A DNA stretch of 34,781 nucleotides, taken from NCBI GenBank assembly GCA_011374625.1, contig DRPN01000005.1:1-34781 (forward strand), given 5' to 3'. The stretch comes from Bacteroidota bacterium (GTDB taxonomy: Bacteria > Bacteroidota > Bacteroidia > Bacteroidales > VadinHA17). Below are positions 6,633 through 30,975 of this stretch, one piece after another. The notes below the pieces were generated by a model. That model did no database searches, was not told the origin of the DNA, and saw only the letters and a list, made by a program, of their open reading frames with translations. Position 1 is the first letter of the stretch, and the number at the start of each line of letters is the position of its first letter. Position numbers and translations under genes: made by a program.

Positions 6633-6676
6633 GGCTTTTCAACGATATTTAACGGCTGGTTTCCGTTGATTTTCCC

Positions 6677-6684: not shown

Positions 6685-6726
6685 TATCGTGATGGTTGAA
6701 TTCTTATCTCTCACGTAAATTTTTCC

Positions 6727-7545
6727 ATGCGACACTTTCGTTGTTATATTATGCTTCTCTTTGTAGCCTGTATTCCATTTTTTTCCTCCTGCACAGAACG
6801 GGAGTCAAACGGAACTCTTGTCAGGATCACCACCAATGTAGGAGAAATCCACGTCAGGCTCTATGATGATACCCCGCTTCACCGGGATAATTTTGTTCGA
6901 CTGGCCAGGGAAGGTTTTTACAATGGCACTCTTTTTCACCGGGTAATCTATGAATTCATGATCCAGGGAGGCGATCCGGATTCCCGTCATGCCGATCCCC
7001 ATGATATACTGGGAAACGGAGGTCCTGGTTATACTGTACCCGCAGAGTTACGTCCTCATCTTTTCCACAAAAGGGGTGCCCTGGCTGCAGCCAGGCTCGG
7101 TGACCGGGAAAATCCGGATCAGGCTTCTTCCGGATCACAGTTCTATATTGTTCACGGCAGGTTATGGACCGATCCGGAGCTTCATGAAATGGAAATAAGA
7201 ATCAATGAAATGCTCAGGCAATCTCTTTTTTATAAGATACTTCATCACCAGAAGCAACTGAATGCTGAACGCGAAATTCCTCTGAACGAAGAGCAACTAC
7301 AGGAACTAGCCATGATCGAGGCCCAGGATCAATGGCTTGAAAGGGAACCTTACCGTATCCCCGAAGAACACAGGGAAGTGTATCGTACAATCGGCGGAAC
7401 ACCCCACCTCGACGGCAGTTATACGGTATTCGGTGAAGTGGTTAAAGGGCTCGATGTGGTAGATAAGATTGCCTCTACTCCCACATCGCCAAACGATCGT
7501 CCGCTTACCGATATTCGCATTTTAACCATGAAAGTATCCAAATAA
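6727..7545 (+). CDS. Cyclophilin-type peptidyl-prolyl isomerase, lipoprotein
   Basis: 272 residues with a lipoprotein signal (hydrophobic core then FFSSC, Cys22), so it probably acts in the periplasm as a membrane-anchored folding helper that isomerises Xaa-Pro bonds. The cyclophilin fold is clear: GEIHVRLYDDTPLHRDNFVRLA, then GTLFHRVIYEFMIQGGDP carrying the catalytic Arg in FHRV and the FMIQGGDP loop, and GSQFYIVHG later. An insertion of about 75 residues (about 145-220, rich in Glu and Gln) separates the FYIVHG strand from the final DGSYTVFGEVVKGLDVVDKI. Insertions of this kind occur in Bacteroidota cyclophilins. It lies ten bases upstream of pheS and probably shares its transcript. Substrates are unknown. 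Confidence 0.93.
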   Translation: MRHFRCYIMLLFVACIPFFSSCTERESNGTLVRITTNVGEIHVRLYDDTPLHRDNFVRLAREGFYNGTLFHRVIYEFMIQGGDPDSRHADPHDILGNGGPGYTVPAELRPHLFHKRGALAAARLGDRENPDQASSGSQFYIVHGRLWTDPELHEMEIRINEMLRQSLFYKILHHQKQLNAEREIPLNEEQLQELAMIEAQDQWLEREPYRIPEEHREVYRTIGGTPHLDGSYTVFGEVVKGLDVVDKIASTPTSPNDRPLTDIRILTMKVSK

Positions 7546-18000: not shown

Positions 18001-19205
18001 AGCTGAAAAAAGATGCGGAAAATAATGGTTCTCCGGTGGCTCATGTACTGAAAAAAATGGCTGCGGGCACTGCGGTACGAAATAAAATGATAGAATATCA
18101 ATATGTTAGCGGTTTGTACGAAGACGGAATGCCGTGGAACGGGGTACTGGCCAGACTGAAAACGGGGAATCCCGAAAGGAAATGGAAGTTCATTGTTCTC
18201 AATGCCGATTCATCACCACAAAAAGTGACGCGGTTTGTCAGGGAGTTTGAGTTACAAACCGGACGTAAAGCCCTTGTGGCCTGGAATGGTGGCTACATTC
18301 TGAATGCCGAGCTGGTAGGAAAACTCGGACTTCCGGAGTCGTATATCGGTTCTCCACTCGGTATGATCATCACCGGTGGCAAAATACTGTCCGCCCCGCT
18401 GTTTTCCAAACCGGCTTTTCTGGTAGACAGGGCGGGCAACATGACTATTCAGCGTATCAGTCTTTCACAAGGCATTACCCTGTTCGATGAACAGGAAGAA
18501 ATCCACATGACGGGTGAGCAGAGAAATCCTGCACAGGTACCGGCTGACCGGCCATGTTTTTATGATTTGATGTATTCTGGCGGGGATATTCCGGCAAGGG
18601 GCAGGTCGGTTGTTCGTATGGCCGGCGACAGGATCATGGAAGTGATCAGAAAACCGGTGGGTGGCAGGGTGAAAATCATCCCGGTGGGAATAACTCTTTC
18701 TTTTCCGGAAGGAAAGGTTCCTGAAGGATGGATGCGGGAAGGAAAAGTGTTACAAATTCACATTCCGGGGTTCGAAAACATACAAGATGCGATTGAAGCA
18801 GGTCCGTTGCTGGTTAAGAACGGAAAGAAAACCATTGATATGGAAGTGGAAGGATGGAAAACGGCCTTTTCGATCGCTACGCAGGCTGCCAGGCTGGATT
18901 ACACCGATATGCGGGGTCCGAAAATTGCGGCGGGTACAGATAAGAAAGGCAACCTCCTCCTTCTGGCGGTGAACGGGAGGATTCGTGAGTCGGTGGGGGC
19001 TACCCACGAAGACATGGCCGATATCATGATCCGTTACGGGGCACATGATGCCATGGGGTTCGATCCCGGAGGAAGCAGCACACTGGTGGTGGAAGGGAAA
19101 ACCCTGAATATTTCGCCATACAACAGCCGGTATCAGGAGAATGTATTTTCTTTGCCCCCCGAACCCAGGGCTGTTTCGAATGCGGTGATTGGATACCTTG
19201 AATAA
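15021..19205 (+). CDS. Giant fusion: GT4-type glycosyltransferase, unknown middle region, C-terminal phosphodiester glycosidase (NAGPA) domain
   Basis: 1394 residues without signal peptide or membrane helix, hence probably cytoplasmic. Residues of about 1-600 form a GT-B glycosyltransferase: the acceptor half contains INNAHDYYWEGGTR, and the donor half contains LQPTRIISRKKIEVS and the EX7E motif ETEGRGLPIIEAAACGVPI (Glu479/Glu487). Residues of about 600-1085 are not recognised; they include aromatic helices and a region with GEKAIAILKEIRDQNGLIITHRKDS. Residues of about 1085-1394 match the NAGPA/phosphodiester glycosidase family (PF09992): WNGGYILNAEL, EAGPLLVKNGK, AAGTDKKGNLLLLAVNGR, GATHEDMADIMIRYGAHDAMGFDPGGSSTLVVEGK. 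NAGPA-fold enzymes cleave sugar-phosphodiesters. Building and trimming activities on one chain suggest a glycosylated or glycosyl-phosphate product; the substrate is unknown. A paralogous GT4 lies at 20369-21655. The gene is intact. Confidence 0.82.
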   Translation: MVKKKTAGNILEWLNREPVETWFDLGLFIDRFREERITSSTCFKGNYEAFAEYLKSGGIAFVTFSFSVDGVSIEIEKYASVFRRLFPGINIHYIAGHFRPESYKMIHPSIRKKTVAEAVGFDSWPLYRDYFFRKLERGSDLYNELIGKMWKEVKAIAVQLADYAEKKKVTLFFPVNVCSNPGNVSLAIALVLVSEYLNIPVINNAHDYYWEGGTRPEDIKRYHLRKGPRDFFFTNAHLGEVFSPIEVFYPWESRRWITLNINRRQSDHVIRINGHNPANVMEIGTAVDMDQYTTTNKRIKINTFYQFEQVLSRYRQILVSYSVDDALSNKLVEESDPRPILINGYQTRPLKNFLAENIIFLQPTRIISRKKIEVSFRLIRKLFQSKEFTGKFSETENLKLTLLVTGPIASGHFGYFVKLLQQFARLVNELPELYRQKIYLAFLFSELDKEHFKRRFEKPVGIPELYNIASLVLLPSETEGRGLPIIEAAACGVPIFCRKYEPQNVYEEVIGLHLPEKDRLQVIEFDGLNITRTHVKKILNRVFFPHLFQTEVLHNQMAVRKRYSLPSLEKSMEGICRRLHHQLQDRGETSNFTGTQIQRYRQKILFRNDTLRQIIKETHRQYLPGFGKMGFMIFLKSLIDPSYFRVEEQYLRGTAMQFAREMMLDEQKKIKIPEEKIISFYNAVDEIFRYCEGDYKIMHDHSFAYRHRARKHYAWHDFTLQEISGLINMMFVEIVQPDKTTRVLETSQFFTDWNLALSQLTASSCIAIDDRKWLFERMKANVPMVIFAGRYVSHELEFFALQSIRSRMKLDLQEELTREILEESASAIAPVYVFAQKYTVRNWPEVNEIEKFIKSGRSGELKLLYDYKLLRIIPVEQWCVGIHLPQLGEKAIAILKEIRDQNGLIITHRKDSVIMSDIMDIDRVHIGKVEDPLTEGFMGIPMGSGFIIHIPAGLRVCLSYPVPVQTARQFHEALHGETFRKMCERYGTTNVMEELKKDAENNGSPVAHVLKKMAAGTAVRNKMIEYQYVSGLYEDGMPWNGVLARLKTGNPERKWKFIVLNADSSPQKVTRFVREFELQTGRKALVAWNGGYILNAELVGKLGLPESYIGSPLGMIITGGKILSAPLFSKPAFLVDRAGNMTIQRISLSQGITLFDEQEEIHMTGEQRNPAQVPADRPCFYDLMYSGGDIPARGRSVVRMAGDRIMEVIRKPVGGRVKIIPVGITLSFPEGKVPEGWMREGKVLQIHIPGFENIQDAIEAGPLLVKNGKKTIDMEVEGWKTAFSIATQAARLDYTDMRGPKIAAGTDKKGNLLLLAVNGRIRESVGATHEDMADIMIRYGAHDAMGFDPGGSSTLVVEGKTLNISPYNSRYQENVFSLPPEPRAVSNAVIGYLE

Positions 19206-19215
19206 TGATGTATGT

Positions 19216-20340
19216 ATGGCCGGTGTTTATATACACATTCCCTTTTGCAGGCAATTGTGCCACTATTGTGATTTTCATAAGACCATTTCCCTGGCCCGGA
19301 CAGGAAGAATGGCAGACTGCCTGAAACGGGAACTCATCCTTCGGCGTGAATATCTCAGTCAGACGGTAGAAACCATTTATTTCGGGGGAGGAACTCCTAC
19401 TGTTCTGGCGTCCGGTCAGCTCGAAGATTTACTGCACACTGTTCAGGAGCTGTTTACGGGTTCCGGGAATCAGGAAATTACTGTGGAAGCCAACCCCGAC
19501 GATCTGGATCCAAACATGTGCGAAACACTGCTAAAAGCAGGGTTTAACAGGATCAGCATCGGGATACAGTCCTTTCAGGAGGCCGATCTGACACTGATGA
19601 ACCGGAGACATACGGCGGAACAATCTATCCGTTCGGTACAGGACGCACAAAATGCCGGTTATGAAAATATTTCCGTGGATCTGATGTACGGACTGCCGGG
19701 AATGACTACGGATACATGGAAAAGAAATGTAGAAACAGCCCTTTCGCTGAATGTACAGCATATCTCGGCCTATTATCTCACCATTGAAAAGGGAACCATG
19801 TTTTACCGGTGGAAGAAGCAGGGAAGGCTGCGGGAACAGGATGAGGCGGAGGGATTTGAGCAGTTCAGGGTGCTGAACAGGGTGGCTGCAGCGGCCGGCT
19901 TTCAGCATTATGAAATATCCAATTATGCCTTACCCGGATACCGGTCCGGACATAATTCGGCCTACTGGAAAGGCATTCCGTACCTGGGGATAGGTCCTTC
20001 GGCACATTCTTTCAACGGAAAGGAAAGACAATGGAATATATCGCACAACGCCAGATACCTCCGGGCCATTGAGGAAGGGGTCATTCCTGCAGAAAAGGAA
20101 AAACTTTCCCGCATCATGCAATTCAATGAAACGGTTATGACCGGATTGCGTACGTCCGACGGCCTGGACCTTGAGGAAATATCCGGAAAATTCGGCACCG
20201 ATCTCCGGGAGTACTGCCTGAATGTAGCAGAGAAATACATACGGAACGGATGGATGATCCGCGACCACGAAAAGCTGATTCTTACGGAAGAAGGAATGTT
20301 TCTTTCCGACACGATTATATGTGATTTTTTCAGGGAATAG
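19216..20340 (+). CDS. hemW: Radical SAM HemW (heme chaperone, HemN-like)
   Basis: 374 residues from the ATG at 19216 (MAGVYIHIPFC); the longer reading would start at a TTG inside the preceding gene. The radical SAM cluster motif is CRQLCHYCDF (Cys11, Cys15, Cys18). Phe two residues after the last Cys and the missing fourth cysteine are typical of HemW rather than coproporphyrinogen dehydrogenase HemN. The SAM-binding TIYFGGGTPTVL, the EANPDDLD strand and NRISIGIQSFQ follow. The HemN C-terminal domain is present (GLRTSDGLDLEEI). HemW binds heme and delivers it to respiratory enzymes; true oxidase activity is not expected. It begins ten bases after the large fusion gene's stop and probably shares its transcript without an obvious functional link. 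Confidence 0.93.
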   Translation: MAGVYIHIPFCRQLCHYCDFHKTISLARTGRMADCLKRELILRREYLSQTVETIYFGGGTPTVLASGQLEDLLHTVQELFTGSGNQEITVEANPDDLDPNMCETLLKAGFNRISIGIQSFQEADLTLMNRRHTAEQSIRSVQDAQNAGYENISVDLMYGLPGMTTDTWKRNVETALSLNVQHISAYYLTIEKGTMFYRWKKQGRLREQDEAEGFEQFRVLNRVAAAAGFQHYEISNYALPGYRSGHNSAYWKGIPYLGIGPSAHSFNGKERQWNISHNARYLRAIEEGVIPAEKEKLSRIMQFNETVMTGLRTSDGLDLEEISGKFGTDLREYCLNVAEKYIRNGWMIRDHEKLILTEEGMFLSDTIICDFFRE

Positions 20341-20368: not shown

Positions 20369-21655
20369 TCAGGTAAGGCCTGTACGGAGGATCAGTTCAT
20401 GCAACTTTTCCTCCAGAACATCATAGGAAAAATACTTTTTACCCAGTTGATAATTGTATTCGCCAATTTCCCTGTTTAAATCATCTTTATAGATTATTTC
20501 GGCCATTTCGCGAACCTTTTCATCGGTCAGCTGATTATCTTCAAGCATCACAATTTTAAATCCCTTGCTTCCGATATCAGGCCAGAAAACCGGCTTGTAA
20601 TTGTTTACAAAGATGGGGGTTCTGGCCAGCACAGCTTCCACAAAAGCATTGCCGAAGCCCTCATAAGTACTGAAGTATGTACAGGCCCGAGCATGAGCAT
20701 AGGCATCGGACAGGGAGTAGTTGACCTCTCCGTTCTGACCCCGTAAACCCCGGTTGTGGAAATTATCGCTGGCAAACCGGACCTGTGACCCCAGTTTCAG
20801 ATCATGGATCAGGTCGACCAGCTTCTGGTAATATTTGTTTCCTTCGTCGTCTGCCTGGCTCCCGGTGATAATCAGTTTCAAACAGGGATCTTCCAGCCGG
20901 TGTACCAGCTGAATGGCGACCTCAATGGCTTTTCGGCTGACGATACGGGTAATCTGGAAAAGCAGGATATCGTTTTTGTCAAAACCCAGGTTTTCTCTCA
21001 GGTTTTTGTTTTTCTCCGTGATCTCTCCGAAAGGCTGGTCGAAATCCATGACATTAGGCACCACCACCGCATCACGGCCATATTTTTCCAGCAGGGTTTT
21101 CCGTGCATTCGTATTGATTACCGCATGATAACTGTTTGGCAGGCGCAGGGGGAAATTTTCGGCAATAAACCGGTTGATATCTTCATGTGGAGAAAGGTAC
21201 CGGTCGCCGCGTTCCCAGGCAAAATCGTGATCATGGGTGATAATCGGAATATCCAGTTGCTGGGCCGCTTTACGGATCCCGAAACCCATTTCGAGATGGG
21301 AGGGAAGGGAAGAAGCATTTTCTGAGATCAGGAGCTGTAGCTTGTTATCCTTTACCCAGGTTTTGATTTTATTGGCAATGATGTTGGAATAAAGGAAAAT
21401 GTGGGCTTTCAGTTCATCCAGGTTCGTATCGGGGTGAAAAAAAGCCTTTTTCTGGCTCCAGAAACTTTCCGGGCTGAAAAACGACATTTCCGGAACCAGT
21501 GTTTCGAAATCATGGTTCATGGGTCTTTCCTGATACTGGCCTGACAGGATATAAACTTCATGGCCCATCCTTCTCAGCACATGGATCCATTTTTCCGCTT
21601 CCAGGGCCACTCCGTCAACCCCGCCGATCCTGCCAATGATCATACCTGTTTTCAC
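20369..21655 (-). CDS. GT4-family glycosyltransferase
   Basis: 428 residues, GT-B fold, retaining type. The N-terminal half has MIIGRIGGVDGVALEAEKW, a nucleotide-sugar GT4 opening, and HDHDFAWERGDRYLSP. The C-terminal half has ITRIVSRKAIEVAIQLVHRL, LIITGSQADDEG and the EX7E catalytic motif in YEGFGNAFVEAVLARTPIFVNNY. It shares these landmarks with the N-terminal part of the 1394-residue fusion at 15021, so the two are probably paralogues acting on related acceptors. The HDHDF-WERG type of GT4 has been linked with small-molecule acceptors such as glycerate derivatives in other bacteria; I hold that loosely. It is the last gene of the long minus-strand run, 28 bases after the coiled-coil gene, and converges on hemW. 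Confidence 0.9.
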   Translation of the reverse strand: MKTGMIIGRIGGVDGVALEAEKWIHVLRRMGHEVYILSGQYQERPMNHDFETLVPEMSFFSPESFWSQKKAFFHPDTNLDELKAHIFLYSNIIANKIKTWVKDNKLQLLISENASSLPSHLEMGFGIRKAAQQLDIPIITHDHDFAWERGDRYLSPHEDINRFIAENFPLRLPNSYHAVINTNARKTLLEKYGRDAVVVPNVMDFDQPFGEITEKNKNLRENLGFDKNDILLFQITRIVSRKAIEVAIQLVHRLEDPCLKLIITGSQADDEGNKYYQKLVDLIHDLKLGSQVRFASDNFHNRGLRGQNGEVNYSLSDAYAHARACTYFSTYEGFGNAFVEAVLARTPIFVNNYKPVFWPDIGSKGFKIVMLEDNQLTDEKVREMAEIIYKDDLNREIGEYNYQLGKKYFSYDVLEEKLHELILRTGLT

Positions 21656-21683
21656 TGCAAGTCAGGTTGGTGGATTGGGAAGG

Positions 21684-22604
21684 TTATTTCAGCAGGAATT
21701 CTGCAGAACCGATCATATACCCGTCGGCGTAAAGGGTGGCGGTATATTCGCCGGGAATGAACTGCCCGTCGTTCGGATAATAGATACACATTTCCACATC
21801 CTGATTCATGTATTCCACCTCTCTTCTGGCTGAGTAAACAATGATATTGTCCTGGTATTCAAACAGGTTGTCAACCGAAAGGGTCAGTACCAGTTCATCG
21901 GGTCTGACCAGACGCAGGTAAACATACCGTTTACCGGCAGGGGTGATCGGATTTTCCCGCAAGGTAAAACATACCATGATCTGTTCCATCCGGTTGATTC
22001 TGTCTCTTTCCTTTCCCCGGCTGTTAATCGGGGTTACTGTAATGTCGGTGGCTTTGATTATCGATGCCATCTGTACTTTCGACGAAAGCTCTTCCCTTAT
22101 CTGGGAAAGTTCTTCCTTTTCGGTCTGTACCTGCTCCAGCTGTGTTTTGACCTGAAGGTTTTCTTCCGCCAGGAGCTTGTTGCGTGTATTCAGCGAGTCG
22201 ATCTGGATAATGTACGACCGCATCACATTCCTCAGGGTTGACAGTTCTTTTTTATATAACTGGATCTTTTCCACGTTGGAAGCCTGTATGGCTAGCAATT
22301 GCCTGATCTTGTCCTGTTCACGTTCCAGTTGCACATTGAGACTGTCGTTGTTGGTTTTGAGTGTGTCGTACCCATAGATCATGGCATTCAGCTCATTTGT
22401 GAGGGAATCCTTTTCCGCCGTAAGGACTCTTTCCATGACCACCATCTCCTTTTTGGTGGTGATCTGCAGATAAGCCAGGACTCCAATGCCAATGAGTAAG
22501 ATAATGCTGGCTATGATCCATCCGGTGGCCTTTTTTTCAGCGGAGGCGGATGGTGTCTGAACCTTTTCCGCATCTTTTTCCTGAAGATTGTTTTTTGTTT
22601 CCAT
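21684..22604 (-). CDS. Membrane-anchored coiled-coil protein, unknown function
   Basis: 306 residues from ATG 22604 (METKNNLQEKDAEK); an upstream ATG at 22619 would add five residues. A cytoplasmic tail of about 30 residues leads into one membrane helix (WIIASIILLIGIGVLAYLQI), then a long alpha-helical coiled coil (about residues 50-185, rich in Leu, Glu, Gln and Asn: SLTNELNAMIYGYDTLKTNN, LREQD-like heptads, TQLEQVQTEKEELSQI). The last 110 residues look beta-rich (VMVCFTLRENPITPAGKRYVYLRLVRPDELVLTL, then CIYYPNDGQFIPGEYTATLYADGYMIGSAEF) and may be an Ig-like domain. The topology is single-pass with the coiled coil in the periplasm. It could brace or measure a periplasmic complex made with the neighbouring TPR and barrel proteins. 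I do not recognise a named family. Confidence 0.82.
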   Translation of the reverse strand: METKNNLQEKDAEKVQTPSASAEKKATGWIIASIILLIGIGVLAYLQITTKKEMVVMERVLTAEKDSLTNELNAMIYGYDTLKTNNDSLNVQLEREQDKIRQLLAIQASNVEKIQLYKKELSTLRNVMRSYIIQIDSLNTRNKLLAEENLQVKTQLEQVQTEKEELSQIREELSSKVQMASIIKATDITVTPINSRGKERDRINRMEQIMVCFTLRENPITPAGKRYVYLRLVRPDELVLTLSVDNLFEYQDNIIVYSARREVEYMNQDVEMCIYYPNDGQFIPGEYTATLYADGYMIGSAEFLLK

Positions 22605-22638
22605 AAATGCCTGGTGCATGTGTGTGTAAAGAACGTCA

Positions 22639-22646
22639 CAAAGTTA
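22639..22646 (-). promoter_or_regulatory. Candidate -7 box inside the minus-strand run
   Basis: On the minus strand TAACTTTG matches TAnnTTTG exactly in the 67-bp gap after the TPR gene and before the coiled-coil gene. It could start a secondary transcript for the coiled-coil and GT4 genes, with a leader of about 28 bases to the 22604 ATG. No -33 TTG was seen. Confidence 0.35.
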
Positions 22647-22671
22647 GGGATATTTTCCTCACCTGCGCATG

Positions 22672-23307
22672 TTATTTTATCTGTTCCAGTCCTTCCAGCG
22701 CCGAAGATCCTCCGGGAGTATGCATCAGGGCTTTCTGGAAAAGAACACGGGCTTCGTTGATCCGGTTCAGTTTCAATTTGGTCCAGCCCAGCATGATCAG
22801 GGCATCGTAATCAAAAGGATACAGGTTCACGACCTTTTCAAAATAGGGAAGAGCCCGGTGGTAGTCCTCTCTTCCGTAATAGATCAGTCCCAGCCGGTGA
22901 AGGGCTACTGATTGATTGGGACAGATCTCGAGTATTTTTTCATACTGGGCTATTACCAGGTTCCAGTTTCCCAGGGCTGAAGCAGGGTATACCAGCCCGA
23001 AGCGGGGTTCCACTGCGTACGGCATGAGGGAAACGGCTTTATTGTAGTAGGCCAAGGATTCGGTAAAGAGCCCGCACTGATAAGTAAGCCAGCCAAGCCG
23101 CAGGTTGATCTCGTATGATTTTTCATCATATACTTCTTTCAGGGCATCGATGGCTTTCTGATAATCCCCCGATGCTTCTTCCAGATAACTTTGCTGAAAC
23201 TGACCGATCACTTTGTTCATATTTTGGGTTTGACCCTGAACTTGTTGCAGGGGCCATAACCACAGGGTCATCATGGCCGTCCAGATAATTTTCTTTAAAA
23301 ATTCCAT
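22672..23307 (-). CDS. Periplasmic TPR protein
   Basis: 211 residues with a signal peptide (MEFLKKIIWTAMMTLWLWPLQQVQGQ). After it come about five TPR-like units: DYQKAIDALKEVYDEKSYEINLRLGWL, GLFTESLAYYNKAVSLMPYAVEPRFGL, NWNLVIAQYEKILEICPNQSVALHRLGLI, DYHRALPYFEKVVNLYPFDYDALIMLGW and INEARVLFQKALMHTPGG. TPR arrays bind proteins; here the likely partner is the preceding beta-barrel/TPR protein, whose gene overlaps this start by 13 bases. The overlap implies coupled translation. No catalytic residues are expected. The specific role is unknown. Confidence 0.86.
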   Translation of the reverse strand: MEFLKKIIWTAMMTLWLWPLQQVQGQTQNMNKVIGQFQQSYLEEASGDYQKAIDALKEVYDEKSYEINLRLGWLTYQCGLFTESLAYYNKAVSLMPYAVEPRFGLVYPASALGNWNLVIAQYEKILEICPNQSVALHRLGLIYYGREDYHRALPYFEKVVNLYPFDYDALIMLGWTKLKLNRINEARVLFQKALMHTPGGSSALEGLEQIK

Positions 23308-24629
23308 TGTATTCCTCCGTTTAAGGTATGTACGTTATAGTGAACATGATTTGTGCCCACCGGTTCAGCGGCCGGATAGGCATTGTATGTGCTGTGAAGC
23401 CTTGAAAGGGTATAGCTCAGCGTAAAATGTGTATTGTTTTTCAGTAAGAAGATGAGGTTTCCTCCCGCCATATATTCGATATAATCCAGTGAATTGAAAA
23501 CCGAAGCTCCCAGGTTGTCGGTAAAATTTTTCAGGTTACCCGTGTATCCGAACAACTCCATCCACAGTGATCCGGTAACTTTCCATCCCAGCTTTTCCCT
23601 GAATACGTATCTTTCATCCACGGTAATGTTCCGGGAATGTTCGGTAATTCTTGAAATTCCGGTAACCGAATACATATTTAGATTTCCGAGGGGGTAACAG
23701 GTAAGCTGCAGGTTCTGTTGCCAGTGTCGAAGCTGGTTGATATAGGTGTAGGTACCCGATATATCCAGATTGAACGGACCGGCTTCCTGGTTATAGGCCA
23801 GGTGCAGAACCACATCATTTGAAATAAATTCGGGTGCCAGCTGGATAACATGGCCGAAGCCCTGTCTCTTATATAGAGCGGGGCTTTTGGTATATACGTA
23901 GTGAAATGAGGTGATGAACGAAGCTCCGTGAAAGGCCCTGATCCTGGCCTGCAGATAGTATTGGTGCTGTGAAGTGTTTCTTTCCGGAACCACATATGCA
24001 TAGTCAGGACCGTTGTAATAAAAAAGATCGTTCTTATGGATATAGGTATACATATGCTGCAGGTGTATACGCGAAGATAGGGTATGACCCAGCGAGGAGC
24101 TGAAGTAATGAAAATGCCGGGTAAGGAACTGCATACCATCCGATGTATCGGAGGGTATGGTAAAATTACGGAACACTTCCCTGTCGTTGTTGAATGTGTA
24201 CTGATAATTCAAACCGAAGCGGGTTATGTTCGACGATCTGTCAAGAAGGTTTTTCACCCGGAACGACATGGGTAGCCGGGGGATCAATGCATGTACATCG
24301 GCATGGCGGCCGGAAAACAGGTAACAGTAATACAGATATTCCAGAGCTGTTTTATCGCCGGAATTAAAATCCAGTGCCGCCTGAAAATGAGGGATAGCTC
24401 CCCTGTAGTTTGCCGTTTCGTAAAAGGCTATGCCCAGCCTCATTCTGAGATAATAGTAATCATGTCCTTGTCTGAGTGCCTCTTTGCCGGCATTCTTCAG
24501 TTCGCCCCAGTTGTTGGTCAGGTATAACCGGTACGTTAACGTATCATAATGGATAAAGTCGTTATGATCCTGTGCCGGGGCGGTACGGAAACTAAGCACT
24601 ATCAGCGGTATGATCAGATAACGGTACAT
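23295..24629 (-). CDS. TPR plus outer-membrane beta-barrel protein
   Basis: 444 residues with a signal peptide (MYRYLIIPLIVLSFRTAPAQ). Residues of about 25-140 carry two to three TPR-like helical pairs (YYLRMRLGIAFYETANYRGAIPHFQAAL). From about 150 to the end alternating strands with many aromatic residues form a barrel of roughly 14-16 strands (RFGLNYQYTFNN, YYLQARIRAFHGASFITSFHYVYT, NTHFTLSYTLSRL), and the chain ends in the C-terminal Phe of an outer-membrane beta-signal (GGIQWNF). It overlaps the upstream UT/M23 gene by 16 bases and the downstream TPR gene by 13, the tightest coupling in the window. By inference it is the outer-membrane pore or anchor of this operon; its ligand is unknown. 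Confidence 0.84.
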   Translation of the reverse strand: MYRYLIIPLIVLSFRTAPAQDHNDFIHYDTLTYRLYLTNNWGELKNAGKEALRQGHDYYYLRMRLGIAFYETANYRGAIPHFQAALDFNSGDKTALEYLYYCYLFSGRHADVHALIPRLPMSFRVKNLLDRSSNITRFGLNYQYTFNNDREVFRNFTIPSDTSDGMQFLTRHFHYFSSSLGHTLSSRIHLQHMYTYIHKNDLFYYNGPDYAYVVPERNTSQHQYYLQARIRAFHGASFITSFHYVYTKSPALYKRQGFGHVIQLAPEFISNDVVLHLAYNQEAGPFNLDISGTYTYINQLRHWQQNLQLTCYPLGNLNMYSVTGISRITEHSRNITVDERYVFREKLGWKVTGSLWMELFGYTGNLKNFTDNLGASVFNSLDYIEYMAGGNLIFLLKNNTHFTLSYTLSRLHSTYNAYPAAEPVGTNHVHYNVHTLNGGIQWNF

Positions 24630-26812
24630 GTTGCGTTGATTTTTTCTTTCTTCCCTTCAATCTTGATCCGGTAAACACCGCCTGTTTCCAGTTTGATCTC
24701 CACGGGGATCTGTTTCAGTATGCGGTGCAGAAAATGGGTGGTGATCAGTGCCTTCAGTGAAATGCTCCCGGGTGACATGTCATCGTCCTGTTCAATATAT
24801 TCCAGCGTGTATCGGGTTCCCAGGAACATAAAAAACGGGGCCAGGAAATCCTGAAGGAACAACTGGGCCCGGCTGAAAAGAAAATGCACCGGATAGCTGT
24901 CATCGATTTTCAGGTTCCGGTAAAATCCCAGAGGAATTTTGTAGAATGAAAGATAGATATAATACAAAAGACTGCTTCTTTTTCCCTGATAATGGGTAAA
25001 ATAAAACAAACTTCCATCGTTGTAAAAATAGGCCCTGGCCCCGGTTTCCCGGCAATGGATATAACTTTTGTTATAGGCATCGGTATTGATTTCCCATTCT
25101 TCTGTATGCGGTGAATGGTTGTGTGTATATTCACAACGGATATGCTGGCCGGGTATCAGGCGGAAAGACTTCTGGAGCAGAGGGTTCAGTTGAATGTTTG
25201 AAACCTGCCAGTTCCTGGCGGGTTTCTGATGCATGCAGAAACAGTATCCGTCTCCGGTATTCCTGATGAAATAGCTGATGGGATAATCCAGGGTGGCCGA
25301 TCCGATATAGGGAGTAGTTTGCAGCTGGAAATGCAAATGCGGATAGGGCGAACGGCCTGAATTTCCCACCCGGGCAATTACCTGTCCTTCTTTTACCCTG
25401 TCGCCGGGTTTCACGGTGACCGATTCTTTTTTCAGGTGGCTCAGCTTGGAATAAAGCCCGTCTTTATGCCTGATCACGATCGTATTGCCCCAGTTTTGTT
25501 TCAGATTGACTTCTCCTACCGGGTTATCATTCACATCGTCCACCACCTCTTCCACCACCCCTTCGCCCGGGGCGGTTACCGATTTGTTGAAACAGTGGTA
25601 ATCTTCCAGGTTTTCGCCTTCGTTCTTATAGGTTTTCCCGTTGTTCCCCAGAATAACAAAATCCCATGCGTGCTTCCATTCGTCTTTGTGGGTGTATTCC
25701 CCGTCATGTCCCTGTGAAACGGTCCATTCCCCCCAGAAGGGCAGCTTGACAGGAAAATACTGAAGATACCGGAACCGGTCCGATTCATTTTTGAAGGTAT
25801 ACAGGTTCTTTTCGGGCTGGTTGTATTGGACCCATACCTCACGGAGACCTTTGGATACATGGGTTCTGAATTTCAGGACATAAAGGAACAAAAGAACGAC
25901 GAGATTGAAAGGCAGCGCATAGATCGATAGGCCGAATACCAGAAAGATCTTGTTCAGGCTGATGGTGATAATGGCTACCAGGGGAATCAGAAACAGGGTC
26001 CACAGGTAACTGGCACGGGAGGGAATCAGAAAAAATCCACCGATGGCAATGGAAGTCAGAATGAAATTGAAGCCGATATAACTGTAGTTGAAGCTGTTCA
26101 GGTCGGCACCGATGATGTTGTAGAAAAGGTATGCGGCATAAAATCCAAGAAGGGAAAGGGAAAAGGCGATTCTGGAAAAATAAAGCAATCCCAGGGCGAT
26201 CACGATCCCTGAAAGTACGCTGTACTGGAAAAATATGGCGCCCAGGCTGATAAAGTAAGTGCGCAATGATTCGGGAATGGCCAAGGAATTCCACCAGTCG
26301 TACAGGGCCACCAGACGGTTTCCACCGATCAGGTAGAGGTCGTTCAGGGTATAAATACCCCGGTCGCTGATCCCCAGCGCCGTGAAATCCTTGGTGGCCA
26401 GAAAAACCAGCCAGAGCGACAGAATAAAAGGCATACTCAGGGCCGGGAGACCGTATTTCCCGATCACTCCCTGGAGACTCATGGAAATAAACAGGGTGAA
26501 TACGGAAGCCAGCAACAGGATCAGAAAAAACAACCACCCCGGGCCGAAATAAATACCCAGGCCCAGTCCTACCAGAAGGCTGTTGAAGCCAAGCAATCCT
26601 TTTCTGATGGTTTCCGGGTGAAAATGCAGTGCACGGGCCAGCAGGTTGGTGATTAATACCGATAACAGCCCGCAGAGTCCCGCAAAAGCGTCGAAAAAAG
26701 TAATGGTGATCAGCAGAACGGCAAACACCAGATTATCGGAAAAGAAAATCTGGGAATAGCTGTTTGCCGTACACCTCAGGAACAGTAAGGCTTCTGCTTT
26801 CAGTTTTTTCAT
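24614..26812 (-). CDS. Urea-transporter-family membrane domain fused to M23 metallopeptidase
   Basis: 732 residues. Residues of about 25-315 form a polytopic domain matching the urea transporter family (PF03253), with the twofold repeat signatures GLLGFNSLLVGLGLG (71-87) and IGFNFILTSIAIGG (246-259). A linker leads to an M23 (LytM/lysostaphin) peptidase at about 360-505: HAWDF (His381, Asp384), APGEGVVEEVV, HLKKES with His459, and PHLHF (His492/His494), the zinc and catalytic residues. M23 enzymes cut peptide cross-links in peptidoglycan. The last 200 residues are beta-rich and unassigned. The fusion suggests channel and hydrolase act together, for example export of a small product coupled with local wall opening. 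Whether it carries urea here is unproven. It starts one base after the decarboxylase stop. Confidence 0.85.
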   Translation of the reverse strand: MKKLKAEALLFLRCTANSYSQIFFSDNLVFAVLLITITFFDAFAGLCGLLSVLITNLLARALHFHPETIRKGLLGFNSLLVGLGLGIYFGPGWLFFLILLLASVFTLFISMSLQGVIGKYGLPALSMPFILSLWLVFLATKDFTALGISDRGIYTLNDLYLIGGNRLVALYDWWNSLAIPESLRTYFISLGAIFFQYSVLSGIVIALGLLYFSRIAFSLSLLGFYAAYLFYNIIGADLNSFNYSYIGFNFILTSIAIGGFFLIPSRASYLWTLFLIPLVAIITISLNKIFLVFGLSIYALPFNLVVLLFLYVLKFRTHVSKGLREVWVQYNQPEKNLYTFKNESDRFRYLQYFPVKLPFWGEWTVSQGHDGEYTHKDEWKHAWDFVILGNNGKTYKNEGENLEDYHCFNKSVTAPGEGVVEEVVDDVNDNPVGEVNLKQNWGNTIVIRHKDGLYSKLSHLKKESVTVKPGDRVKEGQVIARVGNSGRSPYPHLHFQLQTTPYIGSATLDYPISYFIRNTGDGYCFCMHQKPARNWQVSNIQLNPLLQKSFRLIPGQHIRCEYTHNHSPHTEEWEINTDAYNKSYIHCRETGARAYFYNDGSLFYFTHYQGKRSSLLYYIYLSFYKIPLGFYRNLKIDDSYPVHFLFSRAQLFLQDFLAPFFMFLGTRYTLEYIEQDDDMSPGSISLKALITTHFLHRILKQIPVEIKLETGGVYRIKIEGKKEKINATCTVI

Positions 26813-26813
26813 A

Positions 26814-28172
26814 CTATTGCTTTTTTACCTGCAGATGGCCGGGAATTCTTTCCTGCTGGCGAATGGTTTCCAGGCTTTCCTTTTCTCTGATCAGATGTAC
26901 TTTTTTATCGGGATCGATCATCACCACGTTGGGCCGCAGGGTGATGAACTGCATCCACTGTGTCATATTGTATGCCCCGATACGGCTGATCACGAACCGG
27001 TCGCCTTTTTTCAGCAAGGGGAAAACCATGCTTTCCCTGATCACATCGATGTTCATGCACAGGGGGCCGAACACGGCGGTTTCTTCCGTATGCTGGGTAG
27101 ACGGCATGGCAGGAGATATCTGGTGTTCATACCAGAAAGAGGTGAACAGCAGGTTGACACCCACATCCACAATGGTGGAGCGGTATCCGCTGGACAGACG
27201 CTTGTTGGCAATGACCGTTCCCAGCAGGTAGCCGGCATCGTCAATCAGGGCCCTTCCCGTTTCCAGAATAAGCATGGGAAGGTTTTCGGGTTTGATGCCT
27301 GAATTGATCAGGGCGGAGGTAATGGCCTCAGCATATTCGTCGAATGAAGGAGCCGTGTCTGTTCCAGGCAGATAAGCTCCTTTCAGGGTGTTTTTCGAGG
27401 CGAACCCGCCTCCAACATCGATATATTTGATCACATGACCGTATTTTCTTTCCAGGCCGGTTGCCAGGTCGGCCAGTTTGGCCGCGGCAATGCCGTAAGC
27501 TTCCGTGGTCATCATGTAGGTCCCGATGTGCGCATGCAGCCCCACCAGCTCAAACGACTCGCTGATCATAATACGGTTGAGGGCATCCCAGGCTTCTCCG
27601 TTTTCATAATTAAACCCGAAACGGTCCCATTTCGGGTAGATTCCAACATCCATATTCACCCGGATGGCCACTCTGGGTTTGGTATTCATGGTAGCGGCCA
27701 GTTGTTTGAGTGTGTATAACTCGTCGAAATGGTCAATATGGATATAGGCTTTCTGCTCAATGGCTTTTTTCAGGTATTCTTCCGGCTTGTCGGGCCCGTT
27801 GAACAGGATATTGTTCCCGGGAATCCCGTTCGCCAGGGCTTTGTCGAATTCGAATCCCGAAACCACTTCAGCCCAGGAGCCTTCCTGGTGGAATACCCGG
27901 CATACGGCGTCGAGGTAATTGGTTTTGTACGACCAGGCAAACTGTACTTTCGGATAGCGGGTGGAAAAAGCCCGATAAGCTTCCTGGTAGGTTTCACGCA
28001 TGGTTTTTTCGGATATGACGAACAGGGGAGAACCATACTTCTGCATGAGTTCTTCCACGGCTACGTCGTCGATATGGGTAACGGGTTTGATTTCGGTTTT
28101 CATGCCGAATTTGCTTGGCATTCCGGCACTGAGCTTTTTAATAAACGGACGTTCAAAGGCAACTTTTTCCAT
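26814..28172 (-). CDS. Fold-type III PLP-dependent decarboxylase, diaminopimelate decarboxylase class
   Basis: 452 residues, alanine-racemase/LysA fold. PLP-binding Lys83 lies in AWSYKTNYLDAV; GLHAHIGTYM (211-220) and DVGGGF (252-257) bind the cofactor, as does ETGRALIDDAG (304-314, where most relatives have EPGR). The active-site Cys372 opens CMNID, and Tyr401 is in GAYNMTQWMQF. In true LysA this last motif reads CESGD, and the glycine and acidic residues differ here, so the substrate may not be meso-diaminopimelate. A Leu/His-rich N-terminal extension of about 30 residues precedes the barrel. It lies between the ATP-grasp gene and the UT/M23 gene with gaps of 25 and 1 bases, so it probably decarboxylates an amino acid or a ligated intermediate for that pathway. 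Confidence 0.88.
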   Translation of the reverse strand: MEKVAFERPFIKKLSAGMPSKFGMKTEIKPVTHIDDVAVEELMQKYGSPLFVISEKTMRETYQEAYRAFSTRYPKVQFAWSYKTNYLDAVCRVFHQEGSWAEVVSGFEFDKALANGIPGNNILFNGPDKPEEYLKKAIEQKAYIHIDHFDELYTLKQLAATMNTKPRVAIRVNMDVGIYPKWDRFGFNYENGEAWDALNRIMISESFELVGLHAHIGTYMMTTEAYGIAAAKLADLATGLERKYGHVIKYIDVGGGFASKNTLKGAYLPGTDTAPSFDEYAEAITSALINSGIKPENLPMLILETGRALIDDAGYLLGTVIANKRLSSGYRSTIVDVGVNLLFTSFWYEHQISPAMPSTQHTEETAVFGPLCMNIDVIRESMVFPLLKKGDRFVISRIGAYNMTQWMQFITLRPNVVMIDPDKKVHLIREKESLETIRQQERIPGHLQVKKQ

Positions 28173-28197
28173 AACGGCTTATTTCTTGTGAAGGATT

Positions 28198-29271
28198 CTA
28201 TATTGATTTGGATGATTTTTCGGGCTCCACTTCGCCCAGGGTGGAGAGCTGTTCGAATCTGGGCAGATCCACGATCATGTCGTAGGAGTACCTCACGAAC
28301 ATTTTTCCCACATCATAATGTTTGAAGGGTTTCACTTCCATTCCCAGGGCCAGTTTCACCAGGGCTTCAGGAAGGTTTTGTCCGGCCCCTACCGCCAGGT
28401 ATACCCAGGCGGGGATACGGGGATTGATCTCGATCACATACAGTTCATTCCGGGTAGTCTTGATCAGCTCCAGTTCCATACCTCCCCGCCATTGTGTTTT
28501 TGAAATGATGTGACGGGTCAGTTCCATCATGGCCGGATCGTCCAGGGTAATGCCGCCCCACGCCTTCCCCTTATCGGTAATGTACTGCTTGCGCATGGGA
28601 ACGGCTCCCACGGTTTGTCCCGTGCCGTCGCCCAGGGCTACCACATTCACCTCGGTTCCCCTGACAAATTCCTGAATGATTACCGGAAGTCCCCATTTGG
28701 CGGTTATCTTATTATAATGCATTCTTACCTGTTCTTCGTTGTATGCCAGGTAGGCATCGTAAAACTTCCCCTTGACCATGAGGGGGAACTCGAAATCCTC
28801 CCGGAGTTTTTCAATGTCCTGGTATGATAAAATATCCCGGCTTTTCGGTACCGGTACATTGTATTTTTCCCCGAAACGGGGCAGGTTTGATTTGTGCCTT
28901 TCCTCAAACTGGGCCAGGGTGGGAAGAAAAGTGCGGATACCCATTTTTTCAAGCCGCTCAGACGATTTCATAAAGGTATACAGCTCCGCATCGAAATTGG
29001 GGATTAGCACATCCACCTGTTCCTTCGACTGAATGTATTCCAGTCTTTCCAGCAGGGCTTCCACCCCGTCGGAAGGGTAGGGGATCATATAGGTCCGGTC
29101 GGTAACACCCGGCATATAAATTCCCGGCTCAAGGGTCTCGTAAGCCAGGCCTACCACTTCCATGGAAAAGGACCCCGATTCCCGGATGCTTCTGATCACC
29201 GGAACACCCGGTCCGGGATTGTCGGTGTTGTTCAGGCCGGTGGCAGCCAGTTTTAGCTTTAATTTTGACAT
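28198..29271 (-). CDS. ATP-grasp ligase, CarB/PylC-like
   Basis: 357 residues. The N-terminal Rossmann-like part starts LAATGLNNTDNPGPGVPVIRSIRES, followed by VDVLIPNFDAELY. The ATP-grasp region covers about 125-310: FPLMVKGKFYDAYLAYN (Lys167 for phosphate contact), VIIQEFVRGTEVNVVALGDG, and the magnesium-binding MELELIKTT...YVIEINPRIPAWVYLAVGAG with Glu281, Asn283 and Arg285. Such enzymes activate a carboxylate as acyl-phosphate and join it to an amine or thiol. The sequence resembles the carbamoyl-phosphate synthase large-chain branch, but it has only one grasp and no glutaminase. It sits 45 bases after the PqqD-like gene and 25 before the decarboxylase, so amide-bond formation on an amino acid or peptide substrate is likely. 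The substrate is not deducible. Confidence 0.88.
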   Translation of the reverse strand: MSKLKLKLAATGLNNTDNPGPGVPVIRSIRESGSFSMEVVGLAYETLEPGIYMPGVTDRTYMIPYPSDGVEALLERLEYIQSKEQVDVLIPNFDAELYTFMKSSERLEKMGIRTFLPTLAQFEERHKSNLPRFGEKYNVPVPKSRDILSYQDIEKLREDFEFPLMVKGKFYDAYLAYNEEQVRMHYNKITAKWGLPVIIQEFVRGTEVNVVALGDGTGQTVGAVPMRKQYITDKGKAWGGITLDDPAMMELTRHIISKTQWRGGMELELIKTTRNELYVIEINPRIPAWVYLAVGAGQNLPEALVKLALGMEVKPFKHYDVGKMFVRYSYDMIVDLPRFEQLSTLGEVEPEKSSKSI

Positions 29272-29316
29272 GTTGTTTTAGATAGGTCTTTTCAATAAAG
29301 GACTGAAAGGTGGAAA

Positions 29317-29571
29317 TTATTCCCCGTTTTCCAACAGGTTGAACTGTTTCAGCATGCCGATGAAATCGTAATAATACCTTTCCAGTGTGGCATCGTCCAC
29401 ATCGTATTTCCCGGTAAGGTCTCTGATGATATCCTCATGACTCCTGCCCTGCTGCAACAGTTTTACGATTTCCGTTCCAATGGGATTCAGTGAGTAGGAT
29501 TCTCCGGATGAGGGATCGAACACAAACCCGGAATCACTGACAGCAATGTTTTTTCTGAGACTCATAATCAT
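29317..29571 (-). CDS. PqqD-family peptide-binding protein
   Basis: 84 residues from the first ATG (a second, two codons on at 29565, is equally possible). The pattern FVFDPSSGESYSLNPIGTEIVKLLQQGRSHEDIIRDLTGKYDVDDATLERYYYDFIGMLKQFNLL is the PqqD winged-helix fold: strand pair, then NPIGTEIVKLL helix, then D---FI--L----L. PqqD domains hold the leader of a precursor peptide, or recruit a substrate, for modifying enzymes. No HprK-related kinase or radical SAM enzyme, its usual partners, is present; instead an ATP-grasp ligase and a decarboxylase follow directly. No short precursor-peptide gene was found beside it. The gap of about 50 bases upstream shows no convincing promoter. Confidence 0.85.
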   Translation of the reverse strand: MIMSLRKNIAVSDSGFVFDPSSGESYSLNPIGTEIVKLLQQGRSHEDIIRDLTGKYDVDDATLERYYYDFIGMLKQFNLLENGE

Positions 29572-29620: not shown

Positions 29621-30256
29621 TTATCCTTCCATGATCCGCTGAAATTCATCGGTGGAAAGGATGGCCGGCGTGTATGTTTCGTTACGTAATTCCAGCATCC
29701 TGACAAAGGTTCGCAGGTGTATTTTCGAGGCCCTGAGCAGGTTGGAATAAACCCGTATAACATCCGGGTTTTCAGCAAATCCATCCAGTGCTTCCTGAAG
29801 GTCGGCAATATCGGTTTCTTCGATCAGGGCTGCAGCCCGGAGGGCTTCCAGCGGATCGTCTTTTCCCCTGGCAGTCAGCTCCAGGTACAGGGCTTCCCAT
29901 TGTCTGTTCCGGAATTCGCCTTCGTCCTTATGGGCAGCCGGATCCTCCAGATCATACCTTTCCAGAAGATACAGAATGGCATCCATATGAGCCTGTTCAC
30001 TCCGGGCAATGTTTGCAAAGGGCCTCCACGAATGCCTGGAGTGGAAAAAGCGGTATACATCGCGGGCCAGTTTTTCTTCTTCTCTGAGAAGAACCAGGCT
30101 CCGGGCTTCCTCCCGGTTCAGGCTGGCCGTTTGCACGGCGGTTTGGGTCTGCAGGCAGGGGGGAACAGCGGTTTGTTCTTTCGTTGTTTGTTTCCCCTGG
30201 CCGTTTACCGTAAACAGTGTTCCGGCCAGCAGCAGAGGTATAATAAGGTATTTCAT
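29621..30256 (-). CDS. DUF2202 ferritin-like exported protein
   Basis: 211 residues from ATG 30256 (MKYLIIPLLLAGTLFTVNGQ), which begins a signal peptide; the longer reading starts at a TTG. After a polar linker with ACCLQTQ-type composition the DUF2202 core is seen: LNREEARSLVLLREEEKLARDVYRFFHSRH, then ANIARSEQAHMDAILYLLERY, the paired Glu/His helices of a ferritin-like four-helix bundle, and later ALIEETDIADLQEAL and RASKIHLRTFVRMLE. These residues could bind a di-metal centre. The function of the family is not established. It lies between an AraC-type metal-domain regulator and the PqqD-like gene, and follows a palindromic operator candidate, so regulation by a metal signal is plausible. 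Confidence 0.85.
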   Translation of the reverse strand: MKYLIIPLLLAGTLFTVNGQGKQTTKEQTAVPPCLQTQTAVQTASLNREEARSLVLLREEEKLARDVYRFFHSRHSWRPFANIARSEQAHMDAILYLLERYDLEDPAAHKDEGEFRNRQWEALYLELTARGKDDPLEALRAAALIEETDIADLQEALDGFAENPDVIRVYSNLLRASKIHLRTFVRMLELRNETYTPAILSTDEFQRIMEG

Positions 30257-30280
30257 AACAGATGCTTTTTGTTGACGATA

Positions 30281-30288
30281 CAAAACTA
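30281..30288 (-). promoter_or_regulatory. Candidate -7 box for the DUF2202 gene
   Basis: On the minus strand TAGTTTTG matches TAnnTTTG exactly, 25 bases before the ATG at 30256. The 33-bp palindrome at 30307-30339 lies just upstream, covering or abutting the expected -33 region, a position suited to repression or activation. Confidence 0.5.
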
Positions 30289-30378: not shown

Positions 30379-30975
30379 TCAGTAAAGCTGGTCGATTGGT
30401 TTCCGGGATGCGCCTTTGCCCTGCTTGTATTCGCTCACCGTAACACCGGTCACGGCATGAAACTGCCTCGAAAGATACTGTACGCTGCTGTAATCCATCA
30501 TATACGCAATTTCACTCAGGGAAAATTCACCCTGGTTAACCAGTTCCTTGATGCGTTCGATCTTCTGCAAGATAATGTACCGTTCCAGCGTTACAGGCTC
30601 ATTAGCGGAAAACAATCTGGAAAGATACGGGTAGCTCAGGCCCAGTTTTTCTACGATGTAATCCGACTTACGGGTGATGGAATCAACGTTGTTCATCTGA
30701 TGGATCAGTTCGATGACCGCCCGCTTGATCTGTTCCACCAGCCACTTTTCACGGTTTCTGATCAGTTCGAACCCCAGTTTTTCAATGGATTTTTCGATAT
30801 CTTCCCGGGTGTACCGGGAGGAATCCATGGAAACGGTCACTTTCCCCAGTTCGATGCCCGTAATATGGTACCCTTGGTGTGTCAGTTTTTCGTTCAAATA
30901 CCAGATGCAACATCGGCACACCATGTTTTTCACAAGGAAAGTTTCGGTCGGTCGTTGCGGTTTTGTTTTTTCCAT
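30379..30975 (-). CDS. AraC-family regulator with N-terminal HMA-like metal-binding domain
   Basis: 198 residues. Residues of about 10-80 resemble a heavy-metal-associated (HMA) domain: FLVKNMVCRCCIWYLNEKL with Met18, Cys20 and Cys23 as MxCxxC (an extra Cys22 lies between), followed by GYHITGIELGKVTVSMDSS and YTREDIEKSIEKLGFELI, the beta-alpha-beta pattern. Residues of about 105-198 are the AraC/XylS double helix-turn-helix: YIVEKLGLSYPYLSRLFSANEPVTLERYIILQKIERIKELV and LSEIAYMMDYSSVQYLSRQFHAVTGVTVSEYKQ. A copper- or other metal-sensing activator is the natural inference. No metal efflux gene is next to it; the DUF2202 ferritin-like gene lies directly downstream. Start ATG at 30975. Confidence 0.9.
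   Translation of the reverse strand: MEKTKPQRPTETFLVKNMVCRCCIWYLNEKLTHQGYHITGIELGKVTVSMDSSRYTREDIEKSIEKLGFELIRNREKWLVEQIKRAVIELIHQMNNVDSITRKSDYIVEKLGLSYPYLSRLFSANEPVTLERYIILQKIERIKELVNQGEFSLSEIAYMMDYSSVQYLSRQFHAVTGVTVSEYKQGKGASRKPIDQLY

Follow-up and report, generated by a model that had tools for sequence, protein, structure and literature searches.

A 34,781-nucleotide stretch of DNA from a Bacteroidota bacterium (hereafter the window; contig DRPN01000005.1, our C16, positions 1–34781, of assembly GCA_011374625.1, which totals 2.72 Mb and is 96.8% complete with 6.1% contamination) carries a minus-strand operon whose first six genes code, in order, for a PqqD-fold protein, an ATP-grasp ligase, a fold-III pyridoxal phosphate (PLP) decarboxylase, a fusion of a urea transporter with an M23 peptidase (UT/M23), a tetratricopeptide repeat (TPR) protein ending in an outer-membrane-type barrel, and a TPR protein. 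The six genes keep this order in most other loci inspected and almost certainly form one functional system. We tentatively propose that the system synthesizes a small decarboxylated derivative of an amino acid and exports it, a statement that as a whole we regard as possible, with the balance somewhat against it.

An open reading frame (ORF) listing of the window confirmed eight minus-strand genes within 20369–29571, including two overlaps, as a first-pass annotation of this DNA had reported, and the domain labels given there (PqqD, ATP-grasp, PLP decarboxylase, UT/M23, TPR, and GT4) hold in Pfam and NCBIfam. The core genes, all on the minus strand, code for the PqqD-fold protein (29317..29571, 84 aa; PF05402, E 5.6e-13), the ATP-grasp ligase (28198..29271, 357 aa; PF15632, E 5.3e-10), the decarboxylase (26814..28172, 452 aa; PF02784, E 8.8e-32, and PF00278), UT/M23 (24614..26812, 732 aa; PF03253, E 4e-62, and PF01551, E 4.3e-18), the TPR-barrel (23295..24629, 444 aa; an N-terminal TPR part and a 14-strand barrel in a predicted model), and the TPR protein (22672..23307, 211 aa; PF07719, E 5.9e-22). 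Gaps of 45, 25, and 1 bases separate the first four genes, the UT/M23 and barrel genes overlap by 16 bases, and the barrel and TPR genes by 13.

We followed the core with a six-frame profile search in two collections of loci, in which genes were called with a home-made ORF script. The order set holds 41 loci, 40 of them fetched by a UT/M23 match from genomes of the same order and one holding another copy from the same assembly as the window; the named set holds the best 80 of at least 580 ATP-grasp relatives and, chosen by ATP-grasp similarity only, favours close relatives. All six genes lie on one strand in identical order in 34 of the 41 order-set loci, a count that is partly so by construction because the six profiles were built from this set, and in 57 of the 80 named loci; the other 23 named loci comprise 20 that run into the locus end, their order undisturbed up to that point, and three (L087, L096, and L132) with no UT/M23 next door and the second half absent there. 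A PqqD match directly precedes the ATP-grasp match in every one of the 80. Pooled, the exact order is found in 91 of 121 loci besides the window, or in 88 of 118 distinct loci once three sites shared between the two sets are counted a single time. The seven order-set exceptions are a locus at a contig end (L005), one without the TPR gene (L041), two with the enzyme half elsewhere (L045 and L052), one with a complete core and an extra PqqD gene on the other strand (L049), and L051 and L071, which are taken up below. Insertions vary from locus to locus, and a constant seventh member among them was rejected.

The phylum-wide comparison is less biased than either set: among 148 genomes, ATP-grasp and UT/M23 genes (each at E 1e-60) occur in the same 15, with 133 having neither and none having just one (Fisher value 7.6e-21, a figure that ignores shared ancestry and includes the window's own genome). 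The six-gene order is far beyond chance and, together with this co-occurrence of ATP-grasp and UT/M23, supports a single conserved system over chance neighbours, as the first-pass annotation had suggested. Nine of the 15 loci were fetched, and three are in full order (L183, together with L184 and L187, in which the barrel match is weak); in another, L182, neither barrel nor TPR was detected. The UT and M23 parts of this last locus (4923–7195, in the one-contig genome G210) appeared as a candidate for separate genes; they are two overlapping frames, the second with no evident ATG start, probably a frameshift or decay, and we excluded them as evidence. Of six genomes tested, the three with UT/M23 carry the ATP-grasp gene and the three without it (G041, G069, and G112) also lack ATP-grasp.

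Split operons break after the decarboxylase in four genomes, with the other half elsewhere in the genome: in G053 and G090 the PqqD, ATP-grasp, and decarboxylase genes lie away from UT/M23, in G353 the UT/M23, barrel, and TPR genes lie away from the enzymes, and in G354 UT/M23 alone does so. Both halves are retained in four of five split cases.

By hand count, 85 of the 198 genomes sampled from the window's order carry UT/M23 (E 1e-80 or better, some of these being partial matches at contig ends). Named carriers belong to Bacteroidales, Cytophagales, Flavobacteriales, Balneolota (a single clade in the ATP-grasp tree), and Chlorobiota-labelled genomes, with one Kapaibacterium and one Neomarinimicrobiota metagenome genome, metagenome labels being fallible; the closest by ATP-grasp, within the best 80 of at least 580, are Bacteroidales or Bacteroidota metagenome genomes, and cultured genera with the operon include Algoriphagus, Cyclobacterium, Rhodonellum, Labilibaculum, and Marinifilum. 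The window's own assembly holds a second PqqD–ATP-grasp–decarboxylase–UT/M23 copy on contig C29 (22180–27054; L005 13185–18055), cut by the contig end and 45–72% identical by gene, which we leave undecided between a true paralog and a contaminant. A third, decayed copy on contig C56 (L006 7809–9277) comprises a PqqD gene interrupted by an in-frame stop, a DUF4405-like gene that is intact, and no more of the ATP-grasp gene than its broken start; in L083 a DUF4405 gene sits in the same place, between PqqD and ATP-grasp.

The first two core proteins belong to recognizable families. The PqqD protein scores 49.4 bits against PF05402 (gathering cut-off 23.4), and its nearest solved structures are lasso-peptide B1 proteins (5v1u, TbiB1, E 1.4e-13). 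The ATP-grasp protein scores 39.6 bits against PF15632 (cut-off 29.1), has a solved relative in 2pn1 (E 6.8e-12), and keeps a Glu/Glu/Asn metal triad (E268, E281, and N283, which we take to be the usual ATP-grasp magnesium ligands) invariant in 18 alignment rows. A LysW-type carrier with a C-terminal glutamate was rejected, the C-terminus of the PqqD protein being unconserved. The first-pass statement that the usual PqqD partners are absent held for HprK-type and PqqE-type genes, neither of which occurs among neighbour clusters of at least four loci (examined mostly by eye); the one radical SAM gene in these clusters is HemW-like and, in the window as in three other loci, lies on the opposite strand. 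Locus L049 has a second PqqD gene in an opposite-strand run (17970–19901) with genes that we read as kinase-like and sulfotransferase-like; the run resembles an HPr-rel-A cassette and is separate from the core.

Such a PqqD protein could instead bind the leader of a ribosomally synthesized and post-translationally modified peptide (RiPP) encoded elsewhere, which the ATP-grasp enzyme and decarboxylase would modify and from which M23 would remove the leader before export. The lasso B1 proteins are leader-peptide binders, the fold suits a peptide substrate equally well, and a peptidase, modifying enzymes, and a channel are encoded together. However, no conserved small ORF was found upstream, downstream, or between the core genes among 2951 ORFs of 14–110 aa (flanks and wide gaps, clustered; the rest of the genome was unscanned), and the precursor gene that a RiPP or graspetide cluster should contain is accordingly lacking near the core; five small-ORF clusters recurring in at least four loci are, by our own reading, antisense to, or part of, an AraC gene. 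The ATP-grasp protein resembles PF15632 and CarB-like models, with no graspetide family among the matches listed. A modified peptide was one of two products suggested in the first-pass annotation; in ribosomal form it finds no precursor near the core, distant genome regions lying outside the scan, and we consider it unlikely.

Evidence is strongest for the other suggested product, a decarboxylated amino-acid conjugate, since the decarboxylase has an N-citrylornithine decarboxylase as its nearest relative and lacks the residues that bind diaminopimelate (DAP). Its closest solved structure is 7kh2, that very enzyme (E 5.5e-80, versus 9.3e-59 for DAP decarboxylase, DAPDC), and the family profile scores 272 bits against 7kh2, 202 against DAPDC, and 138 against BtrK. 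The window enzyme falls below the curated cut-off of the LysA model (TIGR01048, 226.8 versus 297.9 bits) and below that of the FigC/FslC model (NF041039, 233 versus 500). The PLP Lys, Arg, His, Gly loop, and cross-dimer Cys of the alanine-racemase fold (K83, R171, H213, G254–256, and C372) are present in 39/39 sequences, as are T344, W347, Y348, M373, N374, I375, and Q405. In the window protein T344 aligns with FigC T327 (R343 in DAPDC), W347 with FigC T330, Y348 with FigC Y331, and M373 with FigC M355, a position that is acidic in DAPDC, lysine/ornithine decarboxylases, and arginine decarboxylases. T344 and M373 stand opposite the Arg and Glu of 1twi, so that the distal-carboxylate Arg of DAPDC and the acidic residue beside its catalytic Cys are both replaced (39/39). 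Passages of PMC7857480 describe the residues that set specificity in FigC, among them the DAPDC Arg and the acidic neighbour of the catalytic Cys, and assign DAPDC to a clade that also includes FigC, SbnH, AcsE, MccE, and BtrK; the BtrK substrate is described there as an amino acid on an 87-aa carrier.

Judged from these residues, the enzyme is not a typical LysA and has a FigC-like pocket. At none of these pocket positions would the distal end of the substrate meet an acidic or a basic side chain, which fits a side-chain conjugate with a neutral far end, and they argue against free DAP, lysine, ornithine, or arginine as the substrate. Conjugation through the side chain followed by decarboxylation is thus a likely sequence of events. 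A separate LysA above the curated cut-off is encoded in eight of nine genomes carrying the operon decarboxylase, and the LysA-like label of the first-pass annotation is not supported as a hint of lysine or DAP chemistry; annotators could mistake the operon enzyme for LysA.

The same kinship invites a metallophore interpretation, in which the enzymes build a chelator resembling the arm of a carboxylate siderophore, the channel and barrel export it, and a metal-sensing AraC-type regulator with an HMA-like domain (HMA-AraC) controls the operon. The nearest solved decarboxylase is a siderophore enzyme, and so are three of the five non-polyamine relatives of the decarboxylase clade named in passages of PMC7857480. 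An HMA-AraC gene lies within five genes upstream in 36 of the 96 loci with enough upstream sequence, and a DUF2202 gene in 11 of these 96; RND genes are found near the core in nine loci and CusB-like efflux genes in six. Yet no more than 23 of the 45 regulator copies that could be read have the CxxC pair, so that metal sensing by the HMA domain was rejected as proof, and the residues that contact citrate in FigC are absent. Neither a synthetase of the nonribosomal peptide synthetase-independent siderophore (NIS) type nor a frequent TonB receptor was recognized by eye in neighbour clusters of at least four loci. Urea channels, moreover, carry small neutral molecules and not chelates. We hold a metallophore to be a shade less probable than a ribosomal peptide.

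UT/M23 has a urea-transporter fold over residues ~1–345 (PF03253, 210.5 bits; TIGR03441, 129 bits versus a cut-off of 274.6), an M23 domain over ~352–530, and a mostly beta C-terminal part; its model (predicted local distance difference test score, pLDDT, 90.6) matches urea transporters at Z 35–36 and M23 enzymes at Z 12–14. The metal and catalytic residues of the M23 domain (H375, D384, H459, H492, and H494) are kept in 58/58 sequences; we infer H375 to be the first metal ligand, as the canonical position is K380 and not His. Most pore residues, their roles presumed from dvUT, are also kept, with Q21, F24, F76, L80, F195, F248, and L252 each present in 55–58 of 58. With sides assigned from the inverted repeat, the loops facing the same way as the C-terminal tail average 2.14, 1.05, 1.00, and 0.95 Lys+Arg per sequence and the tail itself 3.55, whereas the short loops of the opposite side average 0.00, 0.09, 0.02, and 0.24; the long linker at 142–186, with about one at each end, is ambiguous. 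Urea transporters have cytoplasmic termini. Because of this positive-inside pattern, and because the model contains no further membrane-length helix, the M23 domain should lie on the cytoplasmic face, contrary to the first-pass view that it acts at the envelope. To our knowledge, a cytoplasmic M23 domain coupled to a channel would be the first such role.

A periplasmic M23 domain that cuts peptidoglycan, with the enzymes recycling or modifying its amino acids, would account for the intact M23 residues, for structural matches to LytM-type endopeptidases, and for a related stand-alone M23 protein with a signal-peptide-like start. The positive-inside pattern and the UT fold favour the other side of the membrane for the domain, however, and the decarboxylase lacks the DAP-binding residues and is not the sole LysA-type enzyme in most of the genomes examined; a cell-wall role is improbable, clearly more so than a metallophore. 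Unrelated genes that merely share an operon, a notion to which the membership of each protein in a widespread family lends some colour, can practically be dismissed and are refuted as chance neighbours because the order is kept in 88/118 distinct loci and the genes occur in the same 15/148 genomes, the halves of split operons being retained as well.

On the outer-membrane side, the barrel protein combines TPR helices with 14 strands over residues 135–443 (model pLDDT 90.4), and its model is nearest to FadL, TodX, CymA, and OmpG (Z about 20). Aligned relatives of the TPR protein are 37–63% identical, and its N-terminus appears, by our own reading, signal-peptide-like.

Returning to the proposed synthesis and export of a decarboxylated amino-acid derivative, the fixed order, the co-occurrence, the intact ATP-grasp, PLP, and M23 residues, the urea-channel fold, and the TPR-barrel are observed, and the chemical steps that we infer would run as follows. 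The ATP-grasp enzyme would activate a carboxylate and attach an amino acid, by way of its side chain, to an acceptor that the PqqD-fold protein either holds or itself constitutes. The decarboxylase would then strip the free alpha-carboxylate from the side-chain-conjugated substrate with its neutral far end, and the M23 domain, at the cytoplasmic face of the channel, would hydrolyse the amide and free the product at the mouth of the pore. Export would proceed through the urea-type channel into the periplasm and from there, by the TPR protein and TPR-barrel, across the outer membrane; the HMA-AraC protein would regulate many of the operon copies. This full release-and-export route is doubtful, a little more so than the general statement. 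A more specific version, a peptide- or protein-scaffolded pathway widespread in Bacteroidota and Balneolota in which ATP-grasp assembly and decarboxylation take place on a PqqD-fold carrier and M23 release and channel export are one step, seems to us about as unlikely as the ribosomal peptide.

Several observations weigh against our proposal. No substrate, product, or precursor peptide was identified, and no conserved small ORF was found near the core. Invariant Cys, Lys, and C-terminal acid are all absent from the PqqD protein, which is also not an acyl carrier; only analogy suggests that it acts as a carrier. In the decarboxylase, FigC H357 and R387, which contact citrate, are replaced by I375 and Q405 (39/39), and no LysA above the cut-off was found in G198 or in the window's own assembly. 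In the channel, the position of dvUT E187 is Ala in 56/58 sequences, and the second signature hydroxyl (Thr) is Ser in 46/58 and Ala in 12/58, including the window; from these changes, urea itself may not be the cargo. A stand-alone M23 relative (L191; six looked at, two readable) has a signal-peptide-like start, so that export of this M23 subfamily apparently occurs, which conflicts with placing the domain in the cytoplasm. Of the six proteins the TPR-barrel varies most (its mean column identity is about 30%), and it went undetected by the barrel profile in L051 and L071, and in five of the nine distant loci the TPR gene directly follows UT/M23 with no barrel between. In four of these five (L186, L188, L189, and L190) the TPR gene is followed at once by a frame of 272–315 residues that begins like a signal peptide and ends in an aromatic stretch resembling a barrel; it is perhaps a relocated barrel that has lost its TPR part. 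G053 and G354 have UT/M23 without an adjoining barrel or TPR gene, and G198 has the enzyme half and no UT/M23.

Flanking the core, the coiled-coil gene (21684..22619, minus strand, 311 aa) and the gene for a GT4-type glycosyltransferase (20369..21655, minus strand, 428 aa; PF00534; NF041101, 219.6 bits versus a cut-off of 640) follow TPR after gaps of 52 and 28 bases. With the start codons chosen here, gaps in the operon range from 1 to 52 bases and not up to 67, as first reported. The first-pass proposal of one eight-gene system survives as a six-gene core; we judge the coiled-coil and GT4 genes to be non-core, lineage-restricted followers because only 6 of 121 other loci have the coiled-coil cluster and only 5 the GT4 cluster, although some loci end too early to show either. 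Five loci with both sit in the window's 12-row ATP-grasp clade, and a sixth (L108, coiled-coil only) lies outside it. Elsewhere in the window (15021–19205, plus strand), a 1394-aa protein pairs a GT4 part that, like the operon GT4, resembles NF041101 with a C-terminal NAGPA phosphodiester glycosidase domain.

Upstream on the same strand are a DUF2202 gene (29621..30283; PF09968, E 3.3e-48), an accessory neighbour 49 bases from PqqD, and, 95 bases further, the HMA-AraC gene (30379..30975; PF12833 over its cut-off, HMA under its cut-off). Since both recur elsewhere, the first-pass limits may set the start of the functional unit too far downstream. Counting the window, 46 of 122 loci have the HMA-AraC cluster, which is on the core strand in 40, and 16 of 122 have the DUF2202 cluster, at position −1 or −2 in 15 and on the core strand in 12. 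In two genomes the operon-side HMA-AraC protein is 54% identical to that of the window, versus 37–39% for paralogs elsewhere; in G199 and G201 only paralogs of 35–38% identity were found. HMA-AraC is the probable regulator of the operon. Near other cores, a secreted protein of ~265 aa with a type IX secretion system (T9SS) tail (L042 12414–13226 and 14 other loci) occurs in 15 of 122 loci, always on the core strand and not in the window operon, and an HGSNAT-like membrane acyltransferase adjoins the core in nine loci on mixed strands (L041 11904–12947 and eight more). Scans of the window for promoters (16 sigma-70-like sites versus a shuffle mean of 18.0) and terminators (20 sites versus 14.3, standard deviation 4.1) gave no clear excess and are uninformative, and Rfam and tRNA scans of the window gave zero matches.

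The operon points to an undescribed metabolite, to a novel employment of the PqqD fold, and to a surprising location for an M23 domain, and the presence of its marker gene UT/M23 in 85 of 198 genomes of one order and of the operon in cultured genera suggests that it should serve a useful role in many environmental bacteria; a scaffolded pathway, if true, would be a new class in which release and export are combined. The components come from known families and no whole-system label that we tested fits, each failing a defining feature; a full-text search of the open-access literature (subscription papers and preprints being outside its scope) returned no description of the set, in agreement with the first-pass annotation. 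Bacteroidetes graspetide clusters have an ATP-grasp gene with TPR genes in some loci, although they are defined with a precursor gene, which is missing near the operon core; the main text of PMC8939145, which appears to concern other ATP-grasp loci, does not contain the words 'decarboxylase' and 'M23'. Lasso-peptide B1 and PqqD chaperones share the fold and family of the operon PqqD protein, but no precursor was detected near the core, and no lasso cyclase or PqqE-type gene was recognized among the recurrent neighbours. The exopolysaccharide porins BcsC and PgaA also place TPR before an outer-membrane barrel, and the BcsC entry 9b8a is among the Foldseek matches; the operon barrel differs in its 14 strands and one short TPR stretch, the core has no polysaccharide synthase, and the best second-look matches are FadL-type. 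The channel dvUT (3k3f) has the same fold as the operon UT (Z 35.9 over 311 residues), whereas the operon protein is fused to M23 and has Ala in place of E187. FigC/FslC of rhizoferrin synthesis is the best solved relative of the operon decarboxylase and has Thr, Tyr, and Met pocket positions in common with it, but the operon enzyme lacks the citrate His and Arg, and its ligase partner is an ATP-grasp enzyme and not an NIS synthetase. In the butirosin module BtrI/BtrJ/BtrK, BtrI is an acyl carrier, whereas the small operon protein is a PqqD fold with no invariant Ser to bear phosphopantetheine, and we know of no butirosin genes for a urea-channel/M23 fusion or TPR-barrel; nevertheless both systems pair a small protein (~85 aa) and an ATP-grasp enzyme (presumably so for BtrJ, which a literature search left unconfirmed) with a clade-2 decarboxylase of the alanine-racemase fold, BtrK being hit by the operon decarboxylase profile, and in both the decarboxylase would act on an amino acid with a free alpha-carboxylate.

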